The position numbers and the translations under genes are program-made. From positions 1 to 64,000 of the forward strand of contig NZ_PYWI01000012.1 in assembly GCF_003049575.1 (NCBI RefSeq): DNA of 64,000 nucleotides. Direction: 5' to 3'. Under the pieces are notes generated by a model, which worked only from the letters and a program-made list of their open reading frames with translations, searched no databases and had not been told where the DNA came from. This document shows, in pieces, positions 55,411-64,000 of the stretch; position 1 is the first letter of the stretch; every line of letters begins with the position of its first letter. Source of the DNA: Lysinibacillus parviboronicapiens. Its GTDB lineage: Bacteria > Bacillota > Bacilli > Bacillales_A > Planococcaceae.

Positions 55411-56564
55411 TTTACTGCCTCCCGTTCCTCATCAAGTATTTCTTGTAGCATGTCGGTAAATAGACGCTCGGTCTCTCGATTCGGTTGTTCACTATATAAA
55501 TCCGCATAAAATGCTCTAAATAAGTCGATGTCTTCTACTTGCTCCGTTTCAATCGCTTGAATTTCTTTGGATAATTCCTGGCGTACCGCCTTGCGTTCGA
55601 TATGCAATGCATGTGGGAACACAGTACGAATACGTTCCATTGGTGAAGCGACGGGCGTATCATCAGTTAGGCGTACAAAAACATAATCCTCACTAGGCGT
55701 TAATTTTAATAAATCATCCATCAAGCCCTCCACCACACGCAAATCACGTCTTGGCATAAGTTTTCGCTTTTCTACTGTTACTAGTCCTGTCTCATCTAAC
55801 TCAACAATTAAATAGCCCTTTACATGCAAGTGCTCCGACAGTGAATACTTCAATGGTGAGCCGGCATATCGAATCGTTTCATTACGTACAAAATGTGCCT
55901 TATGTAAATGGCCCAATGCCGTATAGTTAAACTGTTCAAATAGTGATGCATCCACACAATCCGATCCACCTATTGATAGTGGACGCTCCGAATCACTTGT
56001 GTTCTCTTCCTCATGGCCATATTTGGTTACAAAAGCATGTCCAATGAAAACATTTCGTTGTGTTGTATCCATCGTTGGTGTGATGTGTTCAATGATTTTT
56101 TGCATCGCATCTTGATGGGAGTGGATCGTATCATCTGCTAAAATGGTACGCACAGCTGCAGGCTCTGCAAACGGTACAAGATGAAAATGCACCTCACCAA
56201 ATTGATCTGTCAACACAATTGGCGCCTGATCTTTCCTAAATTGCCCCATTATGTGTAACCCACTATCACGCATTAAACGACTTCCGAAATTTAAGCGACC
56301 TGCACTATCGTGGTTCCCAGCAACCGCTAACACAGGAATTTTTTTATCAAGTACAATCTCTGCAAAAACATCATTTAGCAAATTAACGGCCTCTACAGGT
56401 GGCATAGAACGGTCATATAAATCACCCGCTATGATGATTGCATCAGGCTTTTCTTCATCAATGGCCTGCATAAATTGCTGTAAAATATAGCGTTGGTCCT
56501 CCGTCATGTACACACCTTGTACAAGCTTCCCTAAATGCCAATCTGCTGTATGGAATAGTTTCAT
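55407..56564 (-). CDS. sbcD: Exonuclease SbcCD subunit SbcD (Mre11-like)
   Basis: 385 aa. Metallophosphatase motifs in order: DWHLGK, GDLYDR, GNHDSAGR, GHAFVTKYG and ALGHLHKAH. It is the nuclease partner of SbcC and first gene of the pair; AGGAGG lies upstream. The upstream region contains a 21-bp tandem repeat and the GDSL gene terminator. Confidence 0.96.
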   Translation of the reverse strand: MKLFHTADWHLGKLVQGVYMTEDQRYILQQFMQAIDEEKPDAIIIAGDLYDRSMPPVEAVNLLNDVFAEIVLDKKIPVLAVAGNHDSAGRLNFGSRLMRDSGLHIMGQFRKDQAPIVLTDQFGEVHFHLVPFAEPAAVRTILADDTIHSHQDAMQKIIEHITPTMDTTQRNVFIGHAFVTKYGHEEENTSDSERPLSIGGSDCVDASLFEQFNYTALGHLHKAHFVRNETIRYAGSPLKYSLSEHLHVKGYLIVELDETGLVTVEKRKLMPRRDLRVVEGLMDDLLKLTPSEDYVFVRLTDDTPVASPMERIRTVFPHALHIERKAVRQELSKEIQAIETEQVEDIDLFRAFYADLYSEQPNRETERLFTDMLQEILDEEREAVK

Positions 56565-56658
56565 TCGTTGCGCCTCCTGTCTGCTTTTTATTCTATCATG
56601 CCTTTTAGTGGAACGTACATTCTTGTTTTAGTAGGAAGTCCGCAGGTTGCACTCACTT

Positions 56659-56765
56659 CCCTGGGCGGTTCGCGCTTCTACCTGAGAGATACTCGTCTTC
56701 ACCTGAGCGGTTCGCTTCTCTACCTGAGGGATACTTCTTCTTCACCTGCTCGGTGCACGCGAAGT
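56659..56765. repeat. Degenerate 21-22 bp tandem repeat
   Basis: Five units start with CCTG at about 56660, 56681, 56703, 56723 and 56745. They alternate between CCTGAGCGGTTCGC-type and CCTGAGAGATAC-type, giving a higher-order period of 42-43 bp. Units 1-4 are well conserved, unit 5 is degenerate. The repeat lies between divergently placed ends of sbcD (5' side) and the GDSL gene terminator and has no gene. Confidence 0.7.
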
Positions 56766-56798
56766 ATTCTTTTCCCCCTGTTGTGGGCCATTGCGCAG

Positions 56799-56834
56799 AA
56801 AGGAGTTGTCTCAATGGTGAGACAACTCCTTTTC
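56799..56834 (-). terminator. Terminator of the GDSL hydrolase gene
   Basis: AAAGGAGTTGTCTC (56799-56812) pairs perfectly with GAGACAACTCCTTT (56119+700=56819-56832); strong 14-bp stem, functional in either direction. Confidence 0.8.
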
Positions 56835-56867
56835 CAACGATATTTTCTCTAACGTAAAGTGAACCCC

Positions 56868-57785
56868 TTAGCTATACTGAATCTCTCTTGCTTGTTCGAG
56901 AAATGCTACATATCCGTTAAAGCCTTGAATACGGTGTACGATGGCAACTGACTCTTGCGTTGGTACAACTGGACTCTGTTTGGCTTTTGCTTGCTTTTTT
57001 ACGATTTCCTCAAAGGTCATTGGGTTAGGTTTGGGTAGTTCTACAGATGATATCGCTAAAGCATCACTACCACTATAAGCTTTCAAAAAAGCATTCGCCA
57101 TTTGACGATAACCTTCGAAATTCGGATGTACGTCTGAGCTATTTGGCAAGTAGTTCATTGCCTGTAATCCAAAAGCATCATACACATTAATATAAGTCGC
57201 TCCAGCTTGCTGTGCTTGCTGCTGTAAAATGGTATTTAATTTTACCAGTTGTTCATTCGTTCCTTCTTTTTGAGAGGCATGCACATTCGGATAGGCAAAA
57301 TAGTAACCCATCACATAGACTTTTGCATGTGGTGCACGTGTTTTCAACTCAGCCAAAATCTCCCCCATATTTATCCGAGCAACATTTAATGCGTAATCTG
57401 TCTGTAGCTGAGAAAATGTTAATGTGCCTGCGCTTGGATTCACTTGCACAAGACGTAGTAAGTCATTGGCACCTGCTGAAATGGTAATAAGCGTTGCATT
57501 TGCTAATAACTCACTTGCCTCGGTTGACTTTACGCGCTGCAATACATCAATTGTTGTAAAGCCTGGGAACGCAAGCTCTTTTGTATAATGACCTATTTGA
57601 CCAATCAATCCAAGTCTCATGGCAATTAAATCACTGTAGCCTGTATCAATTTCCTGATAGGGCGTTTGACCCGCTGCTAAAGAATCTCCGATAGCCACAT
57701 AATTCTCAGTCTGTGCAAACGCAGATGAAACACCTATTGTGGCTGTCAGTACCGTTACACTTATTAAGTTCAATAGTCGTTTCAT
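56868..57785 (-). CDS. Secreted SGNH/GDSL hydrolase
   Basis: 305 aa from the ATG at 57785 with GGAAGGTGAG upstream; a GTG 15 bases earlier lies on that ribosome site. Signal peptide MKRLLNLISVTVLTATIGVS with likely cleavage after AFA. GDSL block I VAIGDSLAAG, Gly block around GQIGHY, Asn in SAGANDLL and the catalytic Asp-His in DVHPNFEGY. It is an exported esterase or lipase; substrate unknown. Confidence 0.9.
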   Translation of the reverse strand: MKRLLNLISVTVLTATIGVSSAFAQTENYVAIGDSLAAGQTPYQEIDTGYSDLIAMRLGLIGQIGHYTKELAFPGFTTIDVLQRVKSTEASELLANATLITISAGANDLLRLVQVNPSAGTLTFSQLQTDYALNVARINMGEILAELKTRAPHAKVYVMGYYFAYPNVHASQKEGTNEQLVKLNTILQQQAQQAGATYINVYDAFGLQAMNYLPNSSDVHPNFEGYRQMANAFLKAYSGSDALAISSVELPKPNPMTFEEIVKKQAKAKQSPVVPTQESVAIVHRIQGFNGYVAFLEQAREIQYS

Positions 57786-57844
57786 CCGCTCACCTTCCAC
57801 TCATTGACTATCATATATAAATTATAGGTAAAATGCTATTTAGC

Positions 57845-59074
57845 TTAAAACGCCCAGCTACCTTTACGGAAAATCGGCTCCACAGTCCCATCAGGTAAAA
57901 TACCATCAATATCCATGTCACCGCTACCAATCATAAAGTCCTCATGTGTCACTGAAATATTTGCACCAAGTGCTTCAAGTTGACCGTTTTCTAAATCTCT
58001 ACCGCCCTCTAGGCAAGTTGGGTATGCTTCACCAATCGCTAGATGGTTTGAGGCATTTTCATCGAACAACGTATTGAAATATAAAATCTCTGATGCTGAA
58101 ATCGGTGATCCATGTGGTACAAGTGCTACTTCACCTAAATAGCAGGAACCTTCATCCACTGTAATGAGCTCTTGCAATAAATCATGGCCCATTTGTGCTT
58201 CCGCCTTAATAATTTTTCCATCTTCAAAAGTAAGCTTAAAGCCATCAATTATATTACCCTGATAGACCAATGGCTTAGTATTGCTGACAACCCCACTAAC
58301 ACCTTGCTTCATTGGTAATGTATATACCTCTTCTGTCGGCATATTGGCAATGAATACAGTACCATCAGGTGTTTTACTTCCACCAGTAAGCCATTTATGC
58401 TGAGGTGCTAACGCAATCGTTAAATCTGTACCCGGTGCTGTATAATGAAGCTTTGCATATTTTTTACTGTTCAATAAAGTTGCTCGGGACTCTAAATTCG
58501 CCACATGTGAATGCCAATTTTCAACTGCGTTGCCTTCTCCGATGTGCACTGTTTTAAAAATAGCTTCCCACAGTGCAGGGACTTGCTCTTCTACAACTAA
58601 ATTTGGGAATACCTTTGCTGCCCATTTTGGAGATGGTACTGCTACGATAGACCATGCGATTAAATCTTTCATCACAGCATTTCGATAATTTTTCAGTGCA
58701 GCACCCGCGACTTTTTGATGTGTTGCCAAGCGATCTGTTGGAACACCTGTTAAAAGATCTGGATCAGCTGCGTCTATCCATAAAAGTGCGCCTTTACGCT
58801 CGATTAGCTCATCGCGCATTTTGACAATCCACTCTGGATAACGATTGAACTCTTCATCAGAAGCATGTTCGAAATAGGCACGCTCCATTTCACCATCCGA
58901 AAAATTAACATGCACACGGCCTGCTCCAGCTTTATAGGCTTCTTTTACTACCAAACGAGCAAAGTCTAATGCATCCACAGACGTGTTTACTAACAGATAT
59001 TGACCAGGCTGAATATTGACGCCAACTTTTACAGCAAGCTCTGCATATGCTTGTAATTTCTCTTCAAAAGTCAT
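57845..59074 (-). CDS. M29 family aminopeptidase (copy 2)
   Basis: 409 aa from the ATG at 59074, with GAGGGA upstream. Metal-site motifs as in copy 1: NMPTEEVYT, DEGSCYLGEVALVPH, LFDENASNHLAIG and THEDFMIGSGDMDIDG. Its ATG lies one base after the stop of the helicase gene (TAATATG), so it is translated as the second gene of that transcript. It shares nearly all family blocks with the 44722 gene. Confidence 0.93.
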   Translation of the reverse strand: MTFEEKLQAYAELAVKVGVNIQPGQYLLVNTSVDALDFARLVVKEAYKAGAGRVHVNFSDGEMERAYFEHASDEEFNRYPEWIVKMRDELIERKGALLWIDAADPDLLTGVPTDRLATHQKVAGAALKNYRNAVMKDLIAWSIVAVPSPKWAAKVFPNLVVEEQVPALWEAIFKTVHIGEGNAVENWHSHVANLESRATLLNSKKYAKLHYTAPGTDLTIALAPQHKWLTGGSKTPDGTVFIANMPTEEVYTLPMKQGVSGVVSNTKPLVYQGNIIDGFKLTFEDGKIIKAEAQMGHDLLQELITVDEGSCYLGEVALVPHGSPISASEILYFNTLFDENASNHLAIGEAYPTCLEGGRDLENGQLEALGANISVTHEDFMIGSGDMDIDGILPDGTVEPIFRKGSWAF

Positions 59075-59075
59075 A

Positions 59076-60224
59076 TTATTTCCCTCGCTTTTGTCCAATT
59101 GTTTTTGAATTACCTTCTACTAGTTCTCCGTCATGCCATACTTTTTGAACTGGCTTGCCAGCAATTTCGCGTGTCCACTTTTTATAGGTTTTTTCATCGT
59201 GGTACGATAATAATGTTAAGACTTCACCATCTGCACCTGCACGTCCTGTACGACCTGAACGATGTAAATATTGCTCAATCGTGCGCGGTACGTCAACATG
59301 AATAACATGTGTTAAACCTGCGATATCTAAACCGCGTGCCGCAATATCAGTGGCAATTAAAATACGGGCATCACCTTTACGGAATGCATCTAATGCCTTT
59401 TTACGTTCCTCTTTTTTCATGTCAGAATGTAGGGTTACAATCGGTGCAGCACGATATTGCAATTTCGTTTCCTTCATAAGTAACTGGTCAATATTGTTGA
59501 CAAAGGCTAGTGCACGTAAGCCATCCGTATGTGATAAGCGGCGCAGGAAATCCGTTTTATCACGTTCTTCTACTTTTACAAAGGAATGTACAACTTTGCC
59601 AAACTTCACCATATCCTCAGGTTTAATTTTGAAACGTAATGGCTCAAACATCATACGACTTGCCACTAGTTCAATTTCTTCGGTAATTGTGGCAGAAACG
59701 ACCACTACTTGACGACCGTAGGCTGAGCTTTCGATAAAGGATTTTACTACGACGCGATATTCTCGGCTTAATAACTGATCACATTCGTCTAAAATAACTG
59801 TTTCAATTTCTTTCAGTTTTAATTTGCCCGAACGTGCTAATTCATTTAGACGACCTGGTGTCCCTACAACAATTGTCGGCTTTTTCTTTAACTTCTCGAT
59901 TTGACGTGCAGAGTTTGCACCACCTATTAGTTGCTGAACAGTAATATCAGTACCAGCTGTCCATTCGCGAATAACCTCCACGATTTGCATTGCTAATTCC
60001 TGAGATGGGGCAACAATGAGTCCTTGTGTTTGTTTTTTCGATCCATTTACTTTGTTCAATAAAGGCAATACATAGGCTAATGTTTTCCCTGAGCCTGTTG
60101 GCGATTCTGCTACAATATCTTTGCCCTCAAGCATTGCTGGAATCATTTCATCTTGAATTTTCATTGGCTCTTCGAAATTCCATTTTTCTTGTAGACCTTC
60201 ATTTAATAAATTTATTACTGACAT
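59076..60224 (-). CDS. DEAD-box RNA helicase (YfmL-like)
   Basis: 382 aa from the ATG at 60224 with AAAGGTGG upstream; a GTG four codons earlier lies next to that site. Motifs: Q-motif MKIQDEMIP, I AESPTGSGKT, Ib TPGRL, II LDECD (Asp-Glu-Cys-Asp instead of DEAD), III SAT, V ARGLDIAGL, VI HRSGRTGR. Short C-terminal tail. Resembles B. subtilis YfmL (376 aa), involved in ribosome biogenesis and cold growth. The DECD box is a known variant. Confidence 0.9.
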   Translation of the reverse strand: MSVINLLNEGLQEKWNFEEPMKIQDEMIPAMLEGKDIVAESPTGSGKTLAYVLPLLNKVNGSKKQTQGLIVAPSQELAMQIVEVIREWTAGTDITVQQLIGGANSARQIEKLKKKPTIVVGTPGRLNELARSGKLKLKEIETVILDECDQLLSREYRVVVKSFIESSAYGRQVVVVSATITEEIELVASRMMFEPLRFKIKPEDMVKFGKVVHSFVKVEERDKTDFLRRLSHTDGLRALAFVNNIDQLLMKETKLQYRAAPIVTLHSDMKKEERKKALDAFRKGDARILIATDIAARGLDIAGLTHVIHVDVPRTIEQYLHRSGRTGRAGADGEVLTLLSYHDEKTYKKWTREIAGKPVQKVWHDGELVEGNSKTIGQKRGK

Positions 60225-60440
60225 GTCAATTCCCACCTTTTATCCTGCTTGACACTAGTTTAACATACTAGCTCTGGACAAGCATTTTCCTTCTGTCTAT
60301 CAATTATTGCTCGATATCATTGTACCTGACGCTAAGCGTGTACAACATTCAATACATTGTTGCCGCTCCACTTTTGTAGCTTAAAACGACCTTCGCTGAC
60401 ACAATTTACACACCTTACGAGTCGCAGTGTCGATGTGAAA

Positions 60441-60467
60441 GGCTCACCTATTGCAAACAGGTGAGCC
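60441..60467 (-). terminator. Terminator of the D-aspartate operon
   Basis: GGCTCACCT (60441-60449) pairs with AGGTGAGCC (60459-60467). On the minus strand the tail is TTTCAC, a weak T-run. Confidence 0.65.
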
Positions 60468-60472
60468 AAATG

Positions 60473-61174
60473 TTACTCCACTAATTCATAGCCACATGCT
60501 AATATAGCACACTCAGCTAAAACAATTAGTGAATCGATATATTTGTCTTTTAATTTTAAATCTCGATTGACGATAGATAGCTCTGTACACCCTAAAACAA
60601 TTCGGTCACAATCAAGTGCAAGCATCGCTTCTTCTATTGGCTGCCACTCTTCTTGCGTGACATCCTTACCAGCCTTTACATAATCGTAAATAATCGCCAT
60701 GACTTTTTCCTTCATAGCTTCATCTGGTACAACCGGTGTAATGCCATAGTTCTCTAACGCATCCTGATACATATGCGATGTTAACGTACCTGTTGTCGCT
60801 AAAATACCAACACGCTTCGCCCCTAAATCATGCGCACGCTTGGCCGTTTCACGAATCATATGTAGCACGGGCACTGGAGAGCCTTCAGCTAATTCATCAT
60901 AAAAAGTATGCGCTGTATTGCATGGGATGGCAATCATGTCTGCACCAACAGAAGCTAGTTTTTTCGCATCTTCAATTAAAATTGGCACAGGATTTTTCTT
61001 TGTATTATCTAAAATAAATGCAGTTCGATCAGGAATATTTGTATCATTATCTATAATTGTATGTACATGCTCCTGATCTTTTATAGCCTTCGTACGTCTT
61101 ACAATCATTTCACCGATAAACATTGTTGCAAGTGGACCAACGCCACCAATAATACCTAAAGTTTGTTTTTTCAT
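60473..61174 (-). CDS. Aspartate racemase family protein
   Basis: 233 aa, the usual size for Asp/Glu racemases. The two catalytic cysteines appear as AIPCNTAH and LGCTELS, about 110 residues apart, and the N-terminal GIIGGVGPLATM is the family substrate loop. The gene overlaps the upstream ATP-grasp ligase by four bases. With that ligase it most likely supplies D-Asp for the peptidoglycan bridge; substrate is inferred from the neighbour. Relatives include broad amino-acid racemases. Confidence 0.85.
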   Translation of the reverse strand: MKKQTLGIIGGVGPLATMFIGEMIVRRTKAIKDQEHVHTIIDNDTNIPDRTAFILDNTKKNPVPILIEDAKKLASVGADMIAIPCNTAHTFYDELAEGSPVPVLHMIRETAKRAHDLGAKRVGILATTGTLTSHMYQDALENYGITPVVPDEAMKEKVMAIIYDYVKAGKDVTQEEWQPIEEAMLALDCDRIVLGCTELSIVNRDLKLKDKYIDSLIVLAECAILACGYELVE

Positions 61175-62403
61175 GAGTTCGACAGACCTTTGTTGTTAAA
61201 ATATTTCTTATACTTTCGATAAAAGTTTAAATTTTCGAGCGTCACATTCAACCAGCGTTTTGCATTCATATCTTTATAATTAAAAATAGAATCTGTCGCG
61301 AAGCCTTGGCGAATAAGACTCTTTGCTTCCATCACTAGTTGTTCATTTAATACGTATTTAAATAATACACCGTTTGGCACAATCGTCCATAGATGCTTAT
61401 TTTGAACGTATGTTAGCTGTTGTTTACTGCCACGAATGAAATCATCCGCTACATATTGCATTAAATTATAGCCACTTGCTGTCACATAATAATTTGAAAG
61501 TTCATTATGTAATTCAATACTTAATAACTTGTATTGACCATCGCGTTCATCATATTTCATATCGAACGTCGCAAAGCCTTGGAATTGTATTGTTTCCAGA
61601 AATACCTTCACAAGATCCATCAATGCTTTGTCATAGGCTGTTATAATGGCAACATAGCGACCGATACCATCGGGAGAATGTTCTTCTAAAATAGGGTTTC
61701 CTACAGATAGTAATTTAACTTCATGATCTTGTCCAACATAAGCATTTACAACACGCATATTGGCATCCTCGCCTGGAATATACTGCTGAATCATTAAATC
61801 ATCACGATATGCAGACTCTTTATAAATTGCGTGGAAAATTGCATCCTTTTCTTCTTTATCATGTGCAATATATACTTTTTTCTTACCTGGAAAAATACAT
61901 GTAGCGTATTTCATCATATTCATGGGCTTTATCACAACTGGATATTCAAAGGGTATATTAAATTGCTCATAGTCATTCACTGTGCATATATGCATAGCGG
62001 GAAAATCGAAGCCATATTCCGCACAAAGCTGGTACATACTTTCACGTGTCAGAAGCTGATCTGCAAGTGTAGCATCAACATACGGGATTATAAAAAATTT
62101 GGACAGTTCTTCTTGATGATGCACAATTTTCTTCACATAAAATTCATCGCAGGCAAGCAATAGCAGTTTTTTTCCCGGGAATTCCTCCGCTATCGCTTGT
62201 AAAGCAACAACAAAACGTTCTTCGATATGTAGTCTTGGTACTTCACGAAACGTTAGTAAATCACTCTGTTGAATTTTGGCTGTGTTCGTATGATTTACAG
62301 CGAGTGGTTTCACGCCATAGGACTCGTAAAATGCTCTTGCCATGCCGTAAGCATTCATCTCGTCGCCCAATAAAATCGGTAAAAAAGTGTGCTCAATGGC
62401 CAT
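61171..62403 (-). CDS. ATP-grasp ligase, probable D-aspartate ligase of peptidoglycan (Aslfm-like)
   Basis: 410 aa. ATP-grasp elements: FEYPVVIKPMNM, DLMIQQYIPGED and the later GFATFDMKYD with LSIELHNELSN near the active site. The opening FLPILLGDEMNAYGMARAF strongly recalls Enterococcus faecium Aslfm, which adds D-Asp to the lysine of peptidoglycan precursors. The adjacent racemase supports this, as in E. faecium, and Lysinibacillus wall contains D-Asp bridges. Motif recall and context, not alignment. AAAGGGAG precedes the ATG. Confidence 0.8.
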   Translation of the reverse strand: MAIEHTFLPILLGDEMNAYGMARAFYESYGVKPLAVNHTNTAKIQQSDLLTFREVPRLHIEERFVVALQAIAEEFPGKKLLLLACDEFYVKKIVHHQEELSKFFIIPYVDATLADQLLTRESMYQLCAEYGFDFPAMHICTVNDYEQFNIPFEYPVVIKPMNMMKYATCIFPGKKKVYIAHDKEEKDAIFHAIYKESAYRDDLMIQQYIPGEDANMRVVNAYVGQDHEVKLLSVGNPILEEHSPDGIGRYVAIITAYDKALMDLVKVFLETIQFQGFATFDMKYDERDGQYKLLSIELHNELSNYYVTASGYNLMQYVADDFIRGSKQQLTYVQNKHLWTIVPNGVLFKYVLNEQLVMEAKSLIRQGFATDSIFNYKDMNAKRWLNVTLENLNFYRKYKKYFNNKGLSNS

Positions 62404-62518
62404 TCTACTCAGCTCCCTTTAGCTATTTATAGTAGTGTAACATACTTCATCTTTTTTCTTGGATAGGCCTTTATATGGTGCAATTATATCCTTTTGGGAT
62501 AGCTTTACGCTCTAAAAC

Positions 62519-63505
62519 TCATTTATGAACTGCTACTGCTTGTGACCCTAACTCTTGATAGCTTTTAAAAAATTGATCGACATTATATGTAACAAAGCCT
62601 TTTAATGGGTCCATTACAACTACTTTATCGCCTAAATGCCCAGTTAAAACAACAGCATGCAAGTTCATATACGCGGCACGCGAGGCTGCCTCACCTTCAT
62701 AGATCCAGCCCCTATCATTATTTGTTTTAGGAGTTGATAAATCCAATGTAACCCATGTCACAACTGGTACACCTTCACGGACAAGCTGTAAAATGTCATC
62801 CTGTGAAGCACCACTCATATTTTTGACACGTAAATCTGCTTGTTTATCTGCTATTACTGATTCCGCCGCTTTTACAATCGGAGCTGCAAAGACATACATA
62901 CCTTCCGCTTTGTCACGCGGATTTCCAGCAAATGCATATGCTGGATCTGGTCCAAATCTTTGCCCACCGATTGTTTTAAAATTTTGCTTCGGTAAATACG
63001 TATCAGCCATTTCAAGCTTCGTAACATTCATACCATAATAATTTAATACAGCTGTCAACGATGTAATTTCACAGCCATGTGGTAGTTCAGGATTTTGCAT
63101 AACAACAGGCACATCTAACTCTTGTTCATCCCTTGAAAAATGAGTTTGCAGTCGATAATAGGGCTTTGACGTATCGTAGATAAACGTATCAATTGTTGTA
63201 TAGCCATCGCCCCCCATACTATTTTCAAGTGTGGTTGCAGCAATTGTATATGTTTTACCCTCTACAAGTTTGGAGAATGTCGCCTCGCCCTCTTCAGAAC
63301 CAAGTGCATCCTCAATTTCTTCACCAGTCTCCAAATCTGTCACTTTTATATAGAGATTTGGAATAGGTGCTCCACTATTAAATTCCACCGTTAACACGGT
63401 TAAGTGATTTTTAGATTTATCTTGCTGCACAAGCTGATTACAACCTGAAAGTAGCATTATTATCATCAGACCTATTATAAAAAGGCGTTTATACCCCGTC
63501 CTCAA
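62519..63505 (-). CDS. Lipoprotein with C39-like cysteine peptidase domain
   Basis: 328 aa. Lipobox LLSGC at residues 18-22 after a hydrophobic signal. Residues about 35-110 look like a prealbumin/Cna-B-like domain (IPNLYIKVTDLETGEEIEDA). The C-terminal part is a peptidase_C39_2-like domain: catalytic Cys in HGCEITSLTA and His in LHAVVLTGH followed by VVVMDPLKGF. Probably a membrane-anchored papain-fold peptidase; substrate unknown. Start is TTG with GGAG about 12 bases upstream; less certain than the domain calls. Confidence 0.8.
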   Translation of the reverse strand: MRTGYKRLFIIGLMIIMLLSGCNQLVQQDKSKNHLTVLTVEFNSGAPIPNLYIKVTDLETGEEIEDALGSEEGEATFSKLVEGKTYTIAATTLENSMGGDGYTTIDTFIYDTSKPYYRLQTHFSRDEQELDVPVVMQNPELPHGCEITSLTAVLNYYGMNVTKLEMADTYLPKQNFKTIGGQRFGPDPAYAFAGNPRDKAEGMYVFAAPIVKAAESVIADKQADLRVKNMSGASQDDILQLVREGVPVVTWVTLDLSTPKTNNDRGWIYEGEAASRAAYMNLHAVVLTGHLGDKVVVMDPLKGFVTYNVDQFFKSYQELGSQAVAVHK

Positions 63506-63660
63506 GGCAAAATTCCGCTCCTATCTTGTTCGAAGACAATGAGGCTATCTTCAATTCTATTATTACAATTAATTGTAGTCTCTATTATACGCTAATTTTA
63601 TAGGTGTTCCTATTCTATCATGCTACTTTTTAATGAACTTACTCTTGTTCTCACAATATA

Positions 63661-64000
63661 TTAAGTTGTTTTCACAGTAGGGCGTAATGTATGTTTCAGC
63701 ACCTTGCCAGATGCATTACGTGGTAACTCTACTAAAAATTCAATTTCATGAGGCATTTTATATTTCGCAAGTTGTGTACGGCAATATGCTAGAATTGTCT
63801 CTTCATTTAAAGATTTCCCTTCCTTCAAAACAACAAACGCCTTTGGTACCTCACCATAAACTTCATGCGGTAAACCTACAACTGCGGCTTCTAAAATATC
63901 TGGCAATTGGTATAAAACTTCTTCCACTTCAATTGGATAAATATTTTCACCGCCACGAATAATCATATCTTTTTTACGGTCTACAATATATAAATAACCT
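63661..64000 (-). CDS. Acyl-CoA synthetase/AMP-dependent ligase, C-terminal part (partial)
   Basis: Open to the right edge; 113 codons present. The visible end is the AMP-forming C-terminal domain: GYLYIVDRKKDMIIRGGENI leads into the catalytic-lysine region LPRNASGKVLKHTLR near the end. The 5' part lies beyond the window. It activates a carboxylic or fatty acid as acyl-AMP and then acyl-CoA; chain length unknown. Stop codon at 63661. Confidence 0.92.
   Translation of the reverse strand, partial: GYLYIVDRKKDMIIRGGENIYPIEVEEVLYQLPDILEAAVVGLPHEVYGEVPKAFVVLKEGKSLNEETILAYCRTQLAKYKMPHEIEFLVELPRNASGKVLKHTLRPTVKTT

Follow-up and report, generated by a model that had tools for sequence, protein, structure and literature searches.

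The window analysed here, a 64,000-nucleotide stretch of the Lysinibacillus parviboronicapiens genome (assembly GCF_003049575.1, contig NZ_PYWI01000012.1), carries two overlapping genes on the minus strand, one encoding a racemase and the other an ATP-grasp protein that we refer to as copy A. Together with their neighbours, the features of the locus are as follows:

57845-59098, minus strand: M29 aminopeptidase, a conserved downstream neighbour (PF02073; synteny)
59076-60236, minus strand: DEAD-box helicase, a conserved downstream neighbour (9 of 11 copy A loci of at least 8 kb)
60473-61174, minus strand: racemase of the Asp/Glu-racemase family, putative aspartate racemase (open reading frame of 233 aa; PF01177 and TIGR00035; C85 and C196)
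61171-61174, minus strand: ATGA, the 4-bp overlap of the copy A stop and the racemase start, read from the sequence
61171-62403, minus strand: copy A, an ATP-grasp protein of 410 aa, homologous to D-aspartate ligases and altered in its catalytic loop (open reading frame, homology and AlphaFold model)
61486-61530, minus strand: codons of copy A residues 292-306, KLLSIELHNELSNYY (in copy B, KLFEINLRNGRSSYY), with S295/E297/H299 at the places of CarB E299/N301/R303
62434-62444, minus strand: TATGTTACACT, a sequence resembling an extended -10 element, upstream of copy A, with a like element also upstream of copy B
62519-63505, minus strand: C39-like peptidase-family protein, a conserved upstream neighbour (PF13529; 11 of 11 copy A loci of at least 8 kb)

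The racemase and copy A reading frames have exactly these ends and share 4 bp; a preliminary description of this DNA had stated that the two genes overlap. The end of copy A overlaps the start of the racemase gene in all 32 genomes of the genus that were examined (by 4 bp in 24 and by 1 bp in eight), against 12 of the 65 loci of related genera, among the matches listed, at which a ligase is linked to a racemase; because the overlap is present in every one of the 32 genomes, the linkage of the two genes is not a matter of chance, and a racemase gene accompanies copy A at 42 of 42 loci. Related genera often have the DEAD-box gene as well: it is present at 28 of the 36 loci that bear a genus name and have a linked racemase, within the best 80 of 588 confirmed stretches, the named genera being a sample. 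A promoter-like pattern, TATGNTACACT, written after the sequences had been viewed and describing an element predicted from sequence, lies upstream of 35 of 42 copy A and 44 of 44 copy B genes, five of the 65 related racemase-linked loci and none of 77 other loci. A promoter scan of positions 60200-62800 returned 14 sites against 10.2 expected, a terminator scan of the same interval returned none against 2.0 expected, and an Rfam scan of 56000-64000 gave no match.

The racemase scores above the curated cut-offs of both family models (156 bits against 31 for PF01177 and 227 bits against 93 for TIGR00035), and among solved structures it matches best, at E 1.2e-49, the P. horikoshii aspartate racemase 1jfl. 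Alignment with 1jfl identifies both catalytic cysteines, C85 (IPCNTAH) and C196 (LGCTELS), in agreement with what had been claimed for this gene. From its family and its linkage to a ligase gene, we infer that its substrate would be aspartate. The NCBIfam equivalog model for the cysteate racemase CuyB also passes its cut-off here (212.6 against 190); because the same model passes for the Asl-linked racemases of Kurthia, Viridibacillus, L. odysseyi, Planococcus and Anaeromassilibacillus, we set the cysteate-racemase identity aside. The CuyB name is likely a misnomer when attached to Asl-linked racemases. Two racemases of other Bacilli families fall below the cut-off of 190, at 168 and 166.

Copy A is predicted to adopt the ATP-grasp fold, since its AlphaFold model (pLDDT 90) matches solved ATP-grasp enzymes. 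Its PF13535 score of 11.5 bits lies below the curated cut-off of 27, which says little, because among ten relatives scanned (eight intact and two of copy A) just one, at locus L036, passed any ATP-grasp model (CPSase_L_D2, 22.4 against 19.8). The protein shows full-length homology to Asl-type ligases, at 30-37% identity to those of other Bacilli families, of which 16 were compared (13 genomic, six of them with an adjacent racemase, and three from plasmid records), at 54-58% to seven racemase-linked ligases of related genera and at 57% to its nearest counterpart among ligases of other genera. The preliminary description had likened the start of the protein strongly to the D-aspartate ligase of Enterococcus faecium; the start does resemble homologues from other Bacilli families, lactobacilli included, but the likeness fails in the catalytic loop at residues 294-304. 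The warning that such genes are easily misannotated is borne out by relatives labelled 'carboxylate--amine ligase' or 'hypothetical protein'. The plasmid records (L243-L245) place Asl-like ligases in Latilactobacillus curvatus, with a racemase and aspS alongside, in Lactobacillus crispatus, with asnB alongside, and in Limosilactobacillus fermentum, with neither. A search of viral contigs for relatives of the ligase matched 30 stretches, none of which was confirmed.

To place the catalytic loop, we relied on profiles. The single copy A sequence had no match in the PDB and a 12-row profile gave only chance-level matches to Ras, while a 10-row profile reached VanA at E 0.0012, which puts the E-x-N of the loop on VanA positions 305/307 (counted by hand). 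In a single-target comparison, a profile of 12 intact relatives aligned with E. coli CarB (probability 90, E 1.4e-6), with the loop at E299/N301/R303. These CarB residues, and the E-x-N of Ddl and VanA, bind metal and phosphate. The intact E/D-x-N-x-R loop of an Asl enzyme is absent from copy A in all 32 genomes of the genus, where S-x-E-x-H takes its place, and is present as E-x-N-x-R in a second homologue, copy B, again in all 32. When 228 loci were sorted by best match (42 of copy A, 44 of copy B, 65 from related genera with a linked racemase, 14 of a third paralogue, copy C, and 63 others, some genomes being counted in two collections), S-E-H was found at 42 of 42 A-like loci and E-N-R at 186 of 186 others; for nonredundant sequences the figures are 31 and 145. 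One count had defined the copy A group by S295 itself, and the recount by best match had the same outcome. Three duplicates (L002, L032 and L049) and four distant ATP-grasp proteins (L133, L138, L157 and L158), all four with E-x-N-x-R, were dropped before counting. In three named lactobacillar homologues the first loop residue is E, D and D, respectively, and N and R are retained.

Across 68 near-invariant alignment columns (two of them gap columns), copy A deviates at 14, six of which fall within residues 294-304. At 29 sites copy A is fixed one way and copy B together with the racemase-linked ligases of related genera another; many of these sites lie in other loops, and A-specific changes also cluster in loops 35-49, 80-94, 110-124 and 155-169. 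S295, E297 and H299 are themselves invariant in 31 of 31 nonredundant copy A sequences. Since copy A retains K159, K176 and D281 and has gained a carboxylate at position 297, metal binding may have been rearranged rather than lost.

Copy B lies at C43:88125-89348 of the same genome (4.75 Mb in 117 contigs) and is 56% identical to copy A. It adjoins a ytnP-like gene and has no racemase gene within the 17 kb read; a racemase is likewise found beside none of the 13 copy B loci of at least 8 kb, the other copy B loci having too little flank. All 32 genomes of the genus have both copy A (80-92% identical to that of the window) and copy B (55-57%). Named genomes with such copies, in the matches listed, are those of Lysinibacillus strains and species (sphaericus 2362, boronitolerans, capsici, macroides, mangiferihumi, piscis and others). 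Copy B is a better Asl homologue than copy A: in a first comparison 16 of 16 ligases of other Bacilli families scored higher against copy B, as did 131 of 131 outside-genus ligases among the matches listed, although a fast-evolving copy loses to any outsider, so that this result reports divergence and not lost function. A better homologue of Aslfm elsewhere in the genome, which the preliminary description had named as speaking against its assignment of copy A, is thereby found by proxy, the 131 outside ligases standing in for Aslfm. Copy C, a third Asl-like paralogue at 43-45% identity, is present in 14 of the 32 genomes (L035, L045, L047, L048 and L107-L116); copy A compared with copy C of another genome gave 44%. 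Copy C retains E-N-R in the loop, has GRSS changed to G[AS]SS, forms a separate long branch in the tree and perhaps has another amino-acid specificity; in L035 a mutS-like gene, recognised by eye, stands at a distance of about 3 kb.

In related genera the ligase next to the racemase resembles copy B. Among the matches listed, a B-like ligase with an intact loop accompanies the racemase in Viridibacillus, Ureibacillus, Kurthia, Rummeliibacillus, Metasolibacillus and Paenisporosarcina, and ligases beside a racemase in related genera are 70-88% identical to copy B, with the loop intact in all 65 racemase-linked loci. Because these genera, often at the same locus, pair a racemase with a ligase, as does Lactococcus lactis, whose racD and aslA lie in one operon according to an excerpt of PMC4155827, we read the racemase-ligase operon as the classical one, whose ligase has been rewritten in Lysinibacillus, with an intact copy residing elsewhere. 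The proposal that the pair in the window makes the bridge residue holds in part: the locus is of the racemase/D-Asp-ligase type, but its ligase, unlike copy B and those of the 65 related loci, lacks E-x-N-x-R.

Further afield, at least 23 loci, mostly from gut Clostridia (Anaeromassilibacillus, Acutalibacter and their kin; L211-L214, L216, L219, L223-L229, L231-L237, L239, L241 and L242), encode ligases that are intact and share 51-55% identity with copy B. At 20 of the 23 the locus also includes a racemase, which suggests that those gut Clostridia may have D-Asp bridges. At L041, L174, L204, L206-L210, L119, L121, L125, L244, L212 and further clostridial loci, the neighbourhood of the ligase includes an asparagine-synthase-like gene, as would be expected of an AsnH amidating the D-Asp bridge. 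A clade of ligases with the motif FEVNIRQGRSS and no racemase in the locus (L036, L037, L038, L040, L132, L136 and L137) comprises candidate D-Glu ligases for Lys-D-Glu walls.

Excerpts of three papers describe the wall of Lysinibacillus as Lys-Asp or Lys-D-Asp (PMC6971209, PMC10257616, PMC10434897), in keeping with the L-Lys-D-Asp wall that the preliminary description gave for the genus, and the first of them derives the name of the genus from its Lys-Asp wall (PMC6971209). For Paenisporosarcina, where the ligase is intact and racemase-linked (L169 and L170), an excerpt of PMC5786688 gives L-Lys-D-Asp; the same excerpt gives L-Lys-D-Glu for Planococcus and L-Lys-Gly-D-Glu for Sporosarcina. 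Despite such walls, ligases are racemase-linked at three Planococcus-labelled loci (L163, L166 and L167) and in two Sporosarcina metagenome bins (L172 and L173). Planococcus antioxidans Y74 likewise has a racemase and an intact B-like ligase (L165) together with a wall given as L-Lys-D-Glu in an excerpt of PMC7294307, a mismatch by which either the wall type or the rule that a racemase means D-Asp needs another look. Since D-Glu walls are reported in Planococcus and Sporosarcina with a linked racemase, linkage alone is no proof of a D-Asp wall. Solibacillus is given an L-Lys-D-Glu wall in an excerpt of PMC5578834, and there was no Solibacillus locus among the named loci from the best 80 of 588 stretches.

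Across the 32 genomes, median dN/dS values (Nei-Gojobori, three dS bins) were 0.059-0.080 for copy A, 0.022-0.033 for copy B and 0.064-0.068 for the racemase. With a median this low, copy A is a maintained protein that is not decaying, yet it is less constrained than copy B. In copy A, 219 of 395 positions are invariant across 31 sequences, which, with the low dN/dS, indicates that the protein itself is under selection; copy A thus combines replaced catalytic residues with purifying selection, a combination expected of a pseudoenzyme. Its stem branch measures 0.91 in a 58-row tree or 1.52 in a 32-row tree, 11-17 times that of copy B (0.08 or 0.09). Forcing A and B into one clade costs 10.3 log units (AU p 0.0405), and forcing A, B and the kin of L. 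odysseyi together gives an AU p of 0.0217. Because the tree fails to seat copy A firmly with copy B, a duplication within this genus is not established as the origin of the pair; long-branch effects could be a cause of the poor fit. The racemase stem, at 0.12, is within the range of other genera, and since this is ordinary we rejected the idea that the racemase had changed along with copy A.

We consider it probable that copy B, and not copy A, is the bridge ligase and that copy A has been catalytically rewritten, the role of copy B being deduced from its homology and intact loop; copy A is most likely no longer an ordinary ATP-grasp ligase. The racemase would convert L-Asp to D-Asp, and copy B would activate D-Asp with ATP and join it to the L-Lys side chain of the peptidoglycan precursor. 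The loop of copy A would have passed from E-x-N-x-R to S-x-E-x-H, along with changes in other loops, and then become fixed throughout the genus; keeping its ATP-grasp fold, K159, K176, D281 and promoter-like element, copy A could take part in the D-Asp branch without catalysis, as a partner or regulator of copy B or of the racemase, the role that we favour for it. As a counterpoint, copy A holds the classical overlapping operon and copy B has no racemase neighbour. The role of partner or regulator is speculative, and we advance only tentatively, as a possibility, that copy A is a genus-wide pseudo-ligase that sets the amount of D-Asp in the wall, by sensing D-Asp or a wall precursor or by docking on the racemase or copy B, and that the real ligase is encoded elsewhere in the genome.

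Copy A might instead be a neofunctionalised enzyme, still dependent on ATP, whose metal site has been rearranged (E297 with D281) and which ligates another substrate pair, leaving the D-Asp bridge to copy B. The strict invariance of S295, E297 and H299 is what one would expect of a new active site, and the clustering of changes in the four further loops and the purifying selection would fit as well; but every examined homologue outside copy A has an acidic residue, N and R at the loop, no neighbouring gene hints at a new substrate and the racemase has undergone no rate shift, so that we regard this as a rather doubtful possibility. The view first put forward, by which copy A is itself the D-Asp ligase or shares that job with copy B while tolerating its loop changes, would account for the overlap with the racemase in 32 of 32 genomes, for a position shared with the ligase gene of related genera, and for full-length homology and fixation in the genus. 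It is nevertheless unlikely, given the loss of E-x-N-x-R and given that copy B evolves more slowly and is the better homologue of every one of the 131 outside ligases.

That each copy has its own promoter-like element might point to a division of labour by growth phase, with copy A serving one stage, such as sporulation with a shift in wall chemistry, and copy B vegetative growth. Related genera, several of which form spores, nonetheless have an intact ligase at the copy A locus, and the altered loop speaks against ordinary catalysis by copy A; such a division thus appears very unlikely. The constancy of the overlap (32 of 32 genomes, by 4 bp in 24 and 1 bp in eight, against 12 of 65 related racemase-linked loci) could also be explained if copy A were a relic, kept for no other reason than that translating it drives the start of the overlapping racemase gene, an explanation that its median dN/dS of 0.059-0.080 and 219 of 395 invariant positions render extremely improbable.

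If copy B is indeed the bridge ligase, an annotator guided by operon context would choose the wrong copy, and because Lysinibacillus is named after its Lys-Asp wall (PMC6971209, in excerpt), the bridge enzyme is worth naming correctly. Among the open-access papers listed, titles and the openings of abstracts contain no account of a D-aspartate ligase for Lysinibacillus, nor of a pair of intact and rewritten ligases. Sister proteins with and without the catalytic loop, both kept genus-wide, offer a clean system for studying how an ATP-grasp ligase converts to another role, and the same pair allows one to ask whether a pseudo-ligase regulates bridge synthesis.

The copy A locus belongs to a known family and is not a new kind of system. 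Copies A and B have the ATP-grasp family in common with Aslfm of Enterococcus faecium and AslA of Lactococcus lactis; compared with these enzymes, which the 131 outside ligases represent here, copy B has the intact loop of the racemase-linked relatives but no racemase neighbour, and copy A is without E-x-N-x-R and ranks below copy B as a homologue within the same genome. PylC (4ffl), an active enzyme that ligates L-lysine and D-ornithine, differs from copy A in pathway and substrates. E. coli CarB, with whose E-x-N-x-R loop the profile of 12 intact relatives aligned, differs in having 1073 residues and in keeping both E299/N301/R303 and E841/N843/R845. By description, copy A may be likened to TTLL12, a pseudoenzyme of the ATP-grasp/TTL kind and a conserved human protein reported in an excerpt of PMC3520985 not to catalyse the expected reaction, the corresponding loss in copy A being a predicted one.
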